Assembly (NCBI RefSeq): GCF_030696805.1
Contig: NZ_JAUYRO010000095.1
Location: 1-64,000 of the forward strand
Length of the DNA: 64,000 nt
Direction: 5' to 3'
Source: Methyloversatilis sp.
GTDB lineage: Bacteria; Pseudomonadota; Gammaproteobacteria; Burkholderiales; Rhodocyclaceae
Positions within the stretch are counted from its first letter, which is position 1. The number at the start of each line of letters is the position of its first letter. Of the stretch, positions 14,578 to 17,571 are shown in pieces. A program made the position numbers and the translations under genes. The notes beneath the pieces were generated by a model that did no database searches, had not been told where the DNA came from, and saw only the letters and a list, made by a program, of their open reading frames with translations.

Positions 14578-14998
14578 CGGTCCGTATCCGCCGTCCTCTG
14601 GGAGCGGCCCTTGTGGGATCGCCGCTCCCACCGCCCATAGAACCTCTGCTGCGCCAAGCCCGGCGCTCAGAGCCAGGTCGCGGTCTTCAGCTCACCGCTC
14701 CCACAGCCAGAGCCTCGTCCGCTGCGCCAACGATATGCGCACTCGCTTGGGTCACCGACAGTGCGCGCGCACCACTCGCGATTTATTCCCGGCTCGGCAC
14801 CGGTTCGGTGCATCGCCAGCGGTGAATACAAAGCCCTCAAACTTTCAATTGGATAGAGTCGAAAAAGCATCGCAAGTCGCGGAAAGAAAGGGATTTCAAG
14901 CTGTGGACCGGTTTGTGCTATGCCTACACGTCCTTACAAAAAAGGATGAAAAACAGCGTTGCCCGTAATCAACCGTTCTATCTAGGAGAGGTCCCCTG
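14578..14998. other. Intergenic region with repeat, upstream of the amidase-dockerin gene
   Basis: About 420 bases without a supportable gene. The left part holds the TGTGGGAGCGGC-type repeat and further half-copies to about 14710. The right part (14820-14980) is AT-rich compared with its surroundings and probably contains the promoter of the amidase gene; I could not pick out convincing -35 and -10 boxes. A TAGGAGAGG ribosome-binding site lies just before 14999. Confidence 0.5.
14599..14630. repeat. Dispersed palindromic repeat, second copy
   Basis: TGGGAGCGGC (14599-14608) and GCCGCTCCCA (14621-14630) form inverted arms around a 12-base loop that itself contains TTGTGGGA. The unit is the same as at 10121 and 17480, and it follows the stop of the MFS gene by about 20 bases. 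Shorter fragments (CCGCTCCCACAG) recur near 14695. Confidence 0.7.
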
Positions 14999-16798
14999 AT
15001 GAAGAGAAAGATATTGGCAACTGCGATGGCGCTGGTCGGCAATGTGGCCGCATTCAACGCCCTGGCGCAAACCGCGCCGAAGCAGTTCAGTCTGATCGAG
15101 GCAACGGTGCCGCAAATTCAGGAAGCCTTCCACTCGAGGCTTCTGTCTGCAGAACAACTCATCAACATGTATCTGGCACGCGTGGCCAAGTACGACGACG
15201 CTGGTCCGAAGCTCAATTCCTACATCTATGTCAATCCGCAGGCAGCTGCCACCGCAAAAGCGATGGACGAAGCCCGCTTCGTGCCCGGCACGCCGATCGG
15301 ACCGCTGTACGGCGTGCCCATCCTGTTGAAGGACATCATCGACACCGACGACCAGCCGACCACCGGCGGTGCCGTCGCGCTGAAGGATTCGATTCCGCTG
15401 GACGACGCCTTCATCACCAAGAAGCTGCGCGACGCTGGCGCCATCATCATCGGCAAGGCGACGCTGAGCGAATTCGCCAACTTCATGACCAGCGGCGGTG
15501 TGTCAGGCTTCAGCAATCTGGGGGGCTACGGCTACAACCCTTACGACACGCGTCCGTCGCTCACCAATCCGGATGGCCGACCGTTGCTCAACCCGAGCGG
15601 CTCCAGTTCCGGTTCGGGCATTGCGGCAGCCGCCAATCTGGTGGCGCTGACCATCGGTACCGAAACATCGGGCTCCATCCTGAGCCCGGCCAACGCCAAC
15701 GGTATCGTCGGCATCAAGCCAACCGTCGGTCTGGTCAGTCGTGACGGCATCATCCCGATCACGGCCGATCAGGACACCGCCGGTCCGATGACCCGCACGG
15801 TGACCGATGCCGCCATCGTGCTCGGCGTAATTGCCGGTTACGACCCGACCGACCCGGCGACACTGGAATGTCTGGAGCCGGGCAACTGCTTCAGCGACTA
15901 CACGCCCTTCCTGAAGGCAGACGGTCTGGCCGGTGCCCGCATCGCGGTGCCACCGTTCCCGAACAATCGTGCCGACATCATGAACGCCGCGATCGCCAAG
16001 ATGGAGGCGCTGGGCGCGACGGTGGTCAGGATTCCGGCTGTGACCTTCCCGAGCACCCCCGGCGTGCTGAACTACGGCCAGAAGCGCGACGTGAACGCCT
16101 ATTTCGACACGCTGCCCGACAGCTTTCCGATTCAGTCGCTGGCTGACCTCATCGCGTTCAATGCCGAACCGCCGGCGCCGCTGACCACGGCCGACACCAT
16201 CAAGTACGGTCAGACAACGTTCATCTCGTCGAACAACCTCGACATCAGCCCGGACAGCGCCGACACGCTGAACTATCAGACCAACTTCGCCAACGGCATC
16301 AGCCGCTCGCGCACTGCGATCAACAATGCGCTGAACGGTCCGGACGGTGAAGAGGGTACGGCCGATGATTTCGACGCCATCTTCTATTCGGGCAGCGGCA
16401 GCGCTGGCACCTGGGCACGCGCCGGCTACCCGAGCATCGTCATTCCGTACGGCTCGGTCATTTCGAACGACGTGCCGATTCCCGCCGGTGTGTCGTTTGC
16501 CGGTCGTCGTTTCGGCGAGCCGCGGCTGATCGAACTGGCCTACGCACTCGAACAGGCCACCCAGGGACGCTTCGTGCCGCCGAGTGCGCCGCCGCTGCCG
16601 ACCGACGTGGTGCTGCGCGGCGACATCGACGGCGACGGCAAGGTGAACAGCAAGGATGTGATGGCCGCCTCGCGCCGGCTGAACCAGCCTGCGACCGGCC
16701 CTTACGACAAGGCCGACATCAATGGCGACGGCAAGATCACGGCGCTGGACACGCGCCTGATCACGAATCTGTGCAGCAAGCCGCGCTGCGCACTTTGA
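14999..16798 (+). CDS. Secreted amidase-signature enzyme with C-terminal dockerin-like module
   Basis: The protein has 599 residues with a signal peptide (1-23, ending A-L-A-Q). The amidase-signature domain shows the catalytic lysine in G-V-P-I-L-L-K-D (Lys111), the Ser-rich loop G-S-S-S-G-S-G (201-207, cis-serine about Ser202) and the nucleophile in G-T-E-T-S-G-S (Ser226), followed by G-I-K-P-T-V-G. It should hydrolyse an amide in the periplasm or outside the cell; the substrate is unknown. The last 64 residues hold two 12-residue EF-hand-like calcium loops, DIDGDGKVNSKD (542-553) and DINGDGKITALD (573-584), spaced as in type I dockerins. The next gene encodes a cohesin-like protein, which implies a dockerin-cohesin partnership. 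An extended RBS (TAGGAGAGG) precedes the start. Confidence 0.88.
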   Translation: MKRKILATAMALVGNVAAFNALAQTAPKQFSLIEATVPQIQEAFHSRLLSAEQLINMYLARVAKYDDAGPKLNSYIYVNPQAAATAKAMDEARFVPGTPIGPLYGVPILLKDIIDTDDQPTTGGAVALKDSIPLDDAFITKKLRDAGAIIIGKATLSEFANFMTSGGVSGFSNLGGYGYNPYDTRPSLTNPDGRPLLNPSGSSSGSGIAAAANLVALTIGTETSGSILSPANANGIVGIKPTVGLVSRDGIIPITADQDTAGPMTRTVTDAAIVLGVIAGYDPTDPATLECLEPGNCFSDYTPFLKADGLAGARIAVPPFPNNRADIMNAAIAKMEALGATVVRIPAVTFPSTPGVLNYGQKRDVNAYFDTLPDSFPIQSLADLIAFNAEPPAPLTTADTIKYGQTTFISSNNLDISPDSADTLNYQTNFANGISRSRTAINNALNGPDGEEGTADDFDAIFYSGSGSAGTWARAGYPSIVIPYGSVISNDVPIPAGVSFAGRRFGEPRLIELAYALEQATQGRFVPPSAPPLPTDVVLRGDIDGDGKVNSKDVMAASRRLNQPATGPYDKADINGDGKITALDTRLITNLCSKPRCAL

Positions 16799-16826
16799 TC
16801 ACTCATAGACACGGGACCTGAACATC

Positions 16827-17384
16827 ATGAAATTCGTCAATGCATTGCTTGCTTCAGCTCTGCTGGCCACGGGAGCCGCGCAGGCCCAGGTGGTCACCGC
16901 CGTGCCGTCCTCGTCGGAAGTCGCCGTCGGCGACTTCTTCACCGTCGATCTGATCGTATCCGGTCTGGCGGATGCCACCGTCGGCAGCTTCGACTTCGAC
17001 TTCATCTACGACCCGTTCGTGATGACGTCGTATGGCGTTGTTTTCGGTGAAGGGCTGGACGTGCTCAGTCTGGGTTCGCTGTTTTCGGCGTCGTCTGCGC
17101 CCGGCCTGATCAACATCTTCCAGTCGTCGTTCGACTCGATCGAAGACCTGATCGCGCTGCAGCCGGACACGTTCACGCTGGCGACGCTGTCGTTCAAGGC
17201 AATCAGCCTGGGCAGCAGTTCGCTGGAAGTGTTCGTGAACGCGATCGGCGACGCCGAAGGCATGGCGCTGCCGGTCGAACTGGGCGCCGGCATGGTGACC
17301 GCGGTGCCTGAGCCGCAGACCTACGCCTTGCTGCTGGCCGGTCTGGGCCTGATCGCCCTGTCCGCCCGCCGCCGTCGCGGCTGA
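16827..17384 (+). CDS. Cohesin-like PEP-CTERM protein
   Basis: A 185-residue exported protein, 28 bases after the amidase-dockerin gene and so probably co-transcribed. Residues 1-20 are a signal peptide (A-A-Q-A). Residues about 24-150 look like a cohesin-type beta-sandwich: V-A-V-G-D-F-F-T-V-D-L-I-V-S-G-L, then F-D-F-D-F-I-Y-D-P, and later A-T-L-S-F-K-A. The C-terminus (158-185) is a PEP-CTERM signal, V-P-E-P-Q-T-Y-A-L-L-L-A-G-L-G-L-I-A followed by four arginines among small residues. It would be sorted by exosortase and could hold the dockerin-bearing amidase at the surface. The cohesin assignment is from pattern only; the PEP-CTERM signal is clear. Confidence 0.82.
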   Translation: MKFVNALLASALLATGAAQAQVVTAVPSSSEVAVGDFFTVDLIVSGLADATVGSFDFDFIYDPFVMTSYGVVFGEGLDVLSLGSLFSASSAPGLINIFQSSFDSIEDLIALQPDTFTLATLSFKAISLGSSSLEVFVNAIGDAEGMALPVELGAGMVTAVPEPQTYALLLAGLGLIALSARRRRG

Positions 17385-17408
17385 ACTTTCGCGTCCTGCA
17401 GTGTGAAA

Positions 17409-17442
17409 AGCCCCCCGTGCCGCAAGGCCGGGGGGCTTTTTT
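17409..17442 (+). terminator. Rho-independent terminator after the cohesin-like gene
   Basis: AGCCCCCC (17409-17416) pairs with GGGGGGCT (17430-17437), with the loop GTGCCGCAAGGCC able to extend the stem, followed by a run of T. It lies 25 bases past the stop and ends the amidase/cohesin transcript. The preceding A-run makes it potentially bidirectional. Confidence 0.92.
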
Positions 17443-17479: not shown

Positions 17480-17514
17480 TGTGGGAGCGGCTCCCACAAG
17501 AAGCGGCTCCCACA
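17480..17514. repeat. Dispersed palindromic repeat, third copy
   Basis: TGTGGGAG (17480-17487) and CTCCCACA (17491-17498) form a tight inverted repeat with loop CGG; a second copy of GCGGCTCCCACAAG follows directly. It sits between the terminator of the cohesin-like gene and the end of the oppositely oriented HDOD gene. It is the same family as the units at 10121 and 14599. Confidence 0.75.
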
Positions 17515-17571
17515 AGAGAGGCGGCTCGGCAAGCAGTGGATCGCCCCTTCCTGTCGCCCATCCAGCGCCGG

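Follow-up and report, generated by a model that had tools for sequence, protein, structure and literature searches.

Neighbouring amidase-dockerin and cohesin PEP-CTERM genes of Methyloversatilis as a probable minimal protein display cassette

In this study we describe a pair of adjacent genes of Methyloversatilis sp., located in a stretch of 64,000 nucleotides (assembly GCF_030696805.1, contig NZ_JAUYRO010000095.1, positions 1 to 64,000), whose whole length is called the window below. The first gene encodes a secreted amidase ending in a type I dockerin, and the second, 28 bases downstream, a small cohesin protein with a PEP-CTERM sorting signal. The pair is probably a minimal display cassette of one plug and one socket, anchored with the help of exosortase and open to exchangeable cargo; the binding of the two proteins, its dependence on calcium, the surface location and the substrate of the amidase are what we infer. 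An earlier note, made from the letters of this DNA, had proposed a miniature single-enzyme display system. The minimal pair of that proposal stands, while its picture proved too narrow, the window genes being one instance of a wider cassette with exchangeable cargo.

The gene pair and its host

The features of the pair, all on the forward strand, are as follows.

14999-16798, + strand: amidase-dockerin open reading frame, 599 amino acids, with Pfam Amidase and Dockerin_1 matches
14999..15067, + strand: probable signal peptide of the amidase (MKRKILATAMALVGNVAAFNALA), recognised by eye from the translation
15164..16036, + strand: catalytic core of the amidase with the motifs LLKDI, GSSSGSG and TETSGSI (Pfam stretch, residues 56-346)
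16619..16768, + strand: type I dockerin with two calcium loops (Dockerin_1, residues 541-590)
16772..16795, + strand: C-terminal C-x4-C tail CSKPRCAL, common to relatives in the aligned pair dockerins
16799..16826, + strand: intergenic gap of 28 bases from stop to ATG, read from the sequence
16827-17384, + strand: cohesin PEP-CTERM protein open reading frame, 185 amino acids, assigned by Pfam, an AlphaFold2 model and fold matching
16899..17216, + strand: cohesin domain in its Pfam extent (residues 25-130; the predicted sandwich covers residues 21-160)
17301..17375, + strand: PEP-CTERM exosortase sorting signal (VPEPQTYALLLAGLGLIALSARRRRG), PF07589, residues 159-183
about 17406-17442, + strand: intrinsic terminator at the end of the pair, formed by a strong hairpin and the T run after it

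The first protein belongs to the amidase-signature family, as it combines the Pfam Amidase match (E = 5.5e-65, above the curated cut-off) with the signature motifs, in which we take one lysine and two serines to be catalytic. Its nearest solved relatives are the peptide amidases 5ac3 (3.4e-84) and 1m21 (1.6e-81), and the 25 NCBIfam models of amidase type listed for it all stayed below their cut-offs. Residues 541-590 match Dockerin_1 (PF00404) with E = 1.4e-11 and 44.9 bits, compared with a cut-off of 22.9. Acidic residues are kept at the ligand positions of both calcium loops, DIDGDGKVNSKD and DINGDGKITALD, where the assignment of positions as calcium ligands is our assumption. Two 12-residue loops together with a profile match over the cut-off define the domain as a type I dockerin.

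In the small protein, residues 25-130 match Cohesin (PF00963; E = 1.4e-6, 29 bits, cut-off 24.1) and residues 159-183 match PEP-CTERM (E = 9.4e-9, 35.4 bits, cut-off 20.7); the Pfam scan found no other domain in it. An AlphaFold2 model, built from an alignment of 20 cassette cohesins (A2), had a mean predicted local distance difference test (pLDDT) score of 87.7 and a predicted template modelling (pTM) score of 0.74, with residues 21 to 160 in blocks at 89-97. When this model was compared by Foldseek with the PDB, all 50 matches listed were, by title, cohesins or cohesin-bearing cellulosome chains; the best were 5lxv_A (3.4e-10), 1g1k_A and 6kgc_A, and the non-cellulosomal cohesin 2xdh of Archaeoglobus was among the top fold matches listed. 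A phmmer sequence search of the PDB gave weak matches only, 5lxv_A among them at E = 0.22. The small protein is accordingly described here as a predicted cohesin-type beta sandwich. Among NCBIfam models the window pair matched amidase-type models and PEP-CTERM or other sorting-signal families, with no model specific to the pair; 10 relatives' proteins matched only such sorting-signal families and one ELWxxDGT repeat model under its cut-off.

Several observations of the earlier note were borne out in this way: the two-loop dockerin with its acidic ligands, the exosortase signal on a gene placed 28 bases away by the reading-frame coordinates, and the strong terminator, a hairpin and T run folding at -37.5 kcal/mol (60 bases folded). 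The cohesin-like sandwich, which it had supposed, gained support from both the Pfam match and the predicted fold. A consensus scan listed one terminator-like site at the 3' end of the pair, and since shuffled sequences average 2.2 such sites, the evidence for termination is the hairpin itself. The pair is also flanked by palindromic repeats GGGAGCGGC/GCCGCTCCC (TGTGGGAGCGGCTCCCACA-like), noticed by eye at window positions 14598-14710 and 17482-17520, possibly repetitive extragenic palindromic (REP) elements that could aid its recombination.

The whole 4.19-Mb host genome holds one Cohesin and one Dockerin_1 match over the cut-off, and both are the adjacent window genes. Two exosortases are encoded (PF09721, 4.0e-75 and 4.2e-72), so the small protein, with its tail over the cut-off and an exosortase in the same genome, is a probable PEP-CTERM sorted protein. 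It has 31 matches in the host genome at E <= 0.001, those listed being mostly at the PEP-CTERM end. Among 13 genomes of the genus, host included, five carry both genes side by side, in six pairs (G000, G002, G005, G006 and, twice in tandem, G012; G, C and L labels are our handles for genomes, contigs and loci). In G011 the amidase ends at a contig boundary, and in seven of the 13 no ortholog of either gene was found.

Recurrence with unrelated cargoes

Conserved adjacency in other genomes, which the earlier note had named as a check, is documented by 29 distinct dockerin-cohesin gene pairs tabulated from 21 genera, that is, the genera of the search table plus Paraglaciecola, a Desulfohalobiaceae genome and a 'Proteobacteria bacterium' genome. 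Further pairs outside that table lie at L163 (G481), L158 (G418) and L201 (G237). Both genes are on the same strand in 29 of 29 pairs, and the gap between the frames, 779 bases in G181, is below 130 in all others tabulated.

The cargoes recognised by Pfam are diverse: a GDSL lipase (L157), a calcineurin-like phosphoesterase (L168), an M12B-type metallopeptidase (L163), a glucose/sorbosone dehydrogenase (L159), a peptidase C25 (L238), endonuclease I together with endonuclease/exonuclease/phosphatase (L233), propeller-like proteins (L216, L217, L234) and Ig/cadherin or PKD repeats (L060, L173). At L222 the gene after the cohesin gene encodes first a dockerin, then PKD/Ig repeats and an RHS-like stretch; the dockerin and RHS matches are both under their cut-offs. 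At L158 a single cohesin gene stands between those of a multicopper oxidase and a subtilase, each with a dockerin-like end (17.6 and 18.7 bits, cut-off 22.9); in another search the multicopper-oxidase dockerin, with its neighbours, was counted as over the cut-off. Cargoes at L166 and L206 matched EF-hand-like loops only, that at L175 the dockerin only, and that at L167 gave no Pfam match. Because the same pair is used with unrelated cargoes elsewhere, the unit, in function as in evolution, appears to be dockerin plus cohesin, with the enzyme as the exchangeable part.

A profile scan of contigs gave at least 8 loci, making the taxonomic range a lower bound. L173, L175 and L176 among them carry the pair, and L174 (G845) has a dockerin without adjacent cohesin. 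At L180 and L177 the dockerin variant described below was found with no recognised PEP-CTERM cohesin beside it, and for L178 and L179 the contig scan gave nothing further on the pair.

How regularly the two genes adjoin was counted from both sides. Pfam Cohesin exceeds its cut-off in 19 of the 369 genomes of the class and in 56 of the 399 genomes of the order. Small cohesins were then counted at E <= 0.01 in frames below 400 amino acids, with a PEP-CTERM-like tail recognised by eye on the protein or, in G237, on the next gene; five frames at contig ends (G091 twice, G122, G175, G306) and other small frames without such a tail were left out. Twelve of the resulting 17 adjoin a dockerin gene: all eight over the Pfam cut-off (G000, G138, G164, G181, G297, G418:C112, G481, G761) and four of the nine under it (G237, G386, G076, G480). 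The order search also returned many Burkholderiales matches in frames of about 760-850 amino acids (e.g. L124-L127), outside these counts, which we take to be probably secretins and a separate use of the cohesin fold.

From the other side, the profile of the dockerin variant (A1) gave 15 matches in 10 of 101 genomes of the family. Nine of the 12 strong ones (E below 1e-14) adjoin a cohesin gene, and none of the three weak ones (G846, G035, G850) has a cohesin-profile match in the stretches examined; when genomes contributing to A1 are removed, 5 of the 11 remaining matches adjoin a cohesin gene. The class gave nine matches in nine of 171 genomes, and for six of them the neighbouring gene encodes a small cohesin that ends in a PEP-CTERM-like tail (3 of 6 without the contributing genomes); of the rest, G176 stands among cohesins lacking such a tail, and G110 and G238 are without cohesin. 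Pfam dockerins outside the variant had a PEP-CTERM cohesin beside them in only two of 18 further neighbourhoods (G616, G237), with another about 2.5 kb off in G377; in G409 a weak match lies just where the stretch ends. By these counts adjacency is common for the dockerin variant and uncommon for dockerins at large.

Some related architectures were noted on the way. G845 (L219-L222) encodes five proteins with the dockerin variant, placed, in those read, N-terminally just after the signal peptide and before PKD/Ig or RHS-like repeats, and two cohesin PEP-CTERM genes in the stretches examined; with five dockerin proteins to two cohesin genes, several plugs may share one socket there. Proteins of 8,000-14,000 amino acids with dockerin and/or cohesin stretches, sometimes both, occur in G480:C69, G564:C21, G088:C2 and G705:C17. 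Three cohesin-match proteins without PEP-CTERM (L162:3839-4648, L165:1212-2048, L211:3810-4814) share an NPNIDDKLIP..INSILL-type tail, and on each of these stretches there is a small open reading frame which, by eye, we presume to resemble REP-associated transposases.

The dockerin variant and coupled evolution of the two domains

Most pairs carry a distinct dockerin variant. In 25 aligned pair dockerins, aspartate is invariant at columns 14, 36 and 47 and arginine at column 49 (25 of 25 each). Cysteines at columns 2 and 51 are either both present (13) or both missing (12), never single, and those at columns 55 and 60 are both present in 23 and both missing in two (G145 and G386, whose aligned segments stop before column 60). 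As the 25 rows are not independent, one row per genus was also counted by hand (n = 19), giving 11 with and 8 without the first pair and 17 with and 2 without the second. This covariation suggests two disulfides, of which one would clasp the last helix to the beginning of the first loop and the other would close a C-x4-C loop. Only the second cysteine pair is present in the window dockerin.

Among the 29 tabulated pairs, the four with an N-terminal dockerin (G845 twice, Paraglaciecola, G164) all have the cohesin gene upstream; in the 23 with a C-terminal one it is downstream in 20 and upstream in three (G075, G076, G138), and in the two with an internal one (G145, the 'Proteobacteria bacterium') it is upstream. 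This pattern fits dockerin and cohesin moving as one DNA segment. The distances of the two domains are correlated as well (r = 0.63, n = 25, 0 of 5000 permutations), including with one pair per genus (r = 0.30, n = 19, 51 of 5000 permutations).

The amidase-cohesin pair of G012 (L055:2903-9574) is duplicated in tandem. Measured in 100-base bins, the amidase bodies of the two copies are mostly 60-82% identical; identity reaches 92% in some bins and 96-98% in the first 200 bases. From the dockerin across the gap to the cohesin end it is 92-100%. Given this difference, the two amidase alleles seem to be joined to what is nearly the same dockerin-cohesin segment, as a result of conversion or exchange.

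Proposed function, alternatives and known systems

In the mechanism we propose, the amidase would be exported by its signal peptide, carrying the calcium-folded dockerin as a plug, and its neighbour, likewise exported, would fold as a cohesin and serve as the socket. Acting through the PEP-CTERM tail, exosortase would deliver the cohesin to the exopolysaccharide or the cell envelope, and binding of cohesin to dockerin would hold the enzyme at the surface. We also lean, with less assurance than for the window pair itself, towards a general plug-in display system, in which an anchor with a single cohesin, sorted by exosortase, and a dockerin variant clasped by disulfides travel as one genetic module. 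The dockerin would be C- or N-terminal on secreted proteins that have no relation to each other (amidase, lipase, phosphoesterase, nuclease, peptidases, propellers, RHS/PKD), and the system would span Pseudomonadota and include one desulfobacterium or more.

Several results weigh against a display cassette. Relatives of 192 amino acids with PEP-CTERM (G002, G003, G004, G010; L064, L012, L015, L010) match the cohesin-subfamily profile more weakly, at 3e-14 to 5e-11, and no dockerin gene was found beside those of the four genomes in the stretches examined. No dockerin gene adjoins five of the 17 small PEP-CTERM cohesins (G418:C181, G226, G705, G676, G065), and three of the 12 strong dockerin-variant matches in the family, all in G845, are not beside a cohesin. 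Of 21 cassette cohesin partners scanned with Pfam, 10 pass the Cohesin cut-off, seven are under it and four are unlisted, one of the latter (L201:3576-4133) being a PEP-CTERM gene beside a separate cohesin gene of 17.8 bits; for PEP-CTERM, eight pass, 10 are under the cut-off and in three the match is absent, one of these being a partial query sequence (L055:3059-3460). With Pfam cut-offs so often missed, part of the cohesin family can be recognised only with the help of A2, the alignment of its own members. After thinning by genus the two sets of distances correlate modestly, and linkage by itself could produce the correlation. Finally, docking was modelled on L218, where dockerin and cohesin genes share one frame with a single TAA between them; with the TAA read as glycine, the 243 residues were predicted as a single chain from alignment A7. 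AlphaFold2 placed the cohesin at about 95, the dockerin at 72-79 and much of the linker below 50, with pTM 0.55 and no confident interface, a pTM close to the value expected of a confident cohesin with an unplaced dockerin.

The alternative that survives best accepts the binding and makes the cohesin a transient carrier or release station, whose tail exosortase cleaves so that the complex ends in the exopolysaccharide matrix or the medium. The domain and adjacency evidence applies to it equally, and PEP-CTERM proteins have been linked to exopolysaccharide and floc formation in the parts of PMC1569441 and PMC9850573 consulted; we give it a small but real chance. It is improbable, in our judgement, that the small protein is cohesin-like without binding dockerin at all, for instance a ligand-binding surface protein (e.g. 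for polysaccharide) merely co-expressed with secreted enzymes. The missing interface in the L218 read-through and the five cohesins without dockerin neighbour would suit such a protein, but the partner gene repeatedly has a dockerin while its catalytic part is unrelated, and in the tandem copies it is the dockerin, not the catalytic part, that stays matched with the cohesin. Chance neighbourhood in a PEP-CTERM-rich genome, to which the 31 matches of the small protein might point, is rejected as hardly credible, as each domain is single over the cut-off in the genome, the genes adjoin, and the adjacency recurs across the tabulated pairs in other genera, which puts the pairing beyond chance.

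The display cassette, as the preferred reading, resembles the cellulosome in its cohesin fold, two-loop type I dockerin, secreted enzyme cargo and presumed anchoring through the cohesin partner. It differs in that the small protein has a single cohesin where a scaffoldin has several, that one dockerin gene adjoins it, that the cargo is non-cellulolytic, that a PEP-CTERM tail replaces SLH or LPxTG anchors and that the host is proteobacterial. A cellulosome proper was rejected: the genome has no multi-cohesin scaffoldin, with one cohesin over the cut-off, and no set of dockerin enzymes for plant cell walls, its one dockerin being on the amidase.

Closer in build are the single-cohesin or 'nonSLH-anchoring' scaffoldins, described in the parts of PMC11557425 consulted with LPxTG, LysM, C-terminal transmembrane helix and Cu-amine-oxidase-like domains. 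They share at least one cohesin with a cell-surface signal; PEP-CTERM is not among the anchors named in those parts, and the window cohesin is paired by gene with one cargo. The words 'Proteobacteria' and 'Pseudomonadota' do not occur in the text of PMC11557425. Non-cellulosomal cohesins and dockerins of archaea and other bacteria go back to Peer et al. 2009, as cited in PMC5244752 and PMC9012536; according to the parts of these two sources consulted, function outside the cellulosome stayed unassigned for years (PMC5244752), and the role of archaeal dockerin/cohesin sets is unclear (PMC9012536). The window pair likewise lies outside cellulose degradation and has 2xdh among its top fold matches, and it differs in recurring as a unit of two genes that includes a sorting signal, which gives a specific testable function. 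With the PEP-CTERM/exosortase system, as described in the consulted part of PMC1569441, it shares the C-terminal PEP motif, hydrophobic stretch and arginine cluster, with exosortases in the host genome; unlike there, the sorted protein would be the socket for a second, untagged protein and not the effector. In our searches of the open-access literature on cohesin or dockerin with PEP-CTERM no description of such a pair was found, and absence there does not equal absence from print.

A compact gene pair of socket and plug offers a direct test of cohesin-dockerin function outside the cellulosome in an easily expressed system. If the proposed function is true, the cohesin-dockerin principle would reach into Gram-negative bacteria that are not cellulolytic, some PEP-CTERM proteins might be anchors for partner proteins, and protein display would gain short orthogonal binding pairs. 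Its recurrence beside different enzymes suggests a simple and reusable way to retain secreted proteins on the cell surface.

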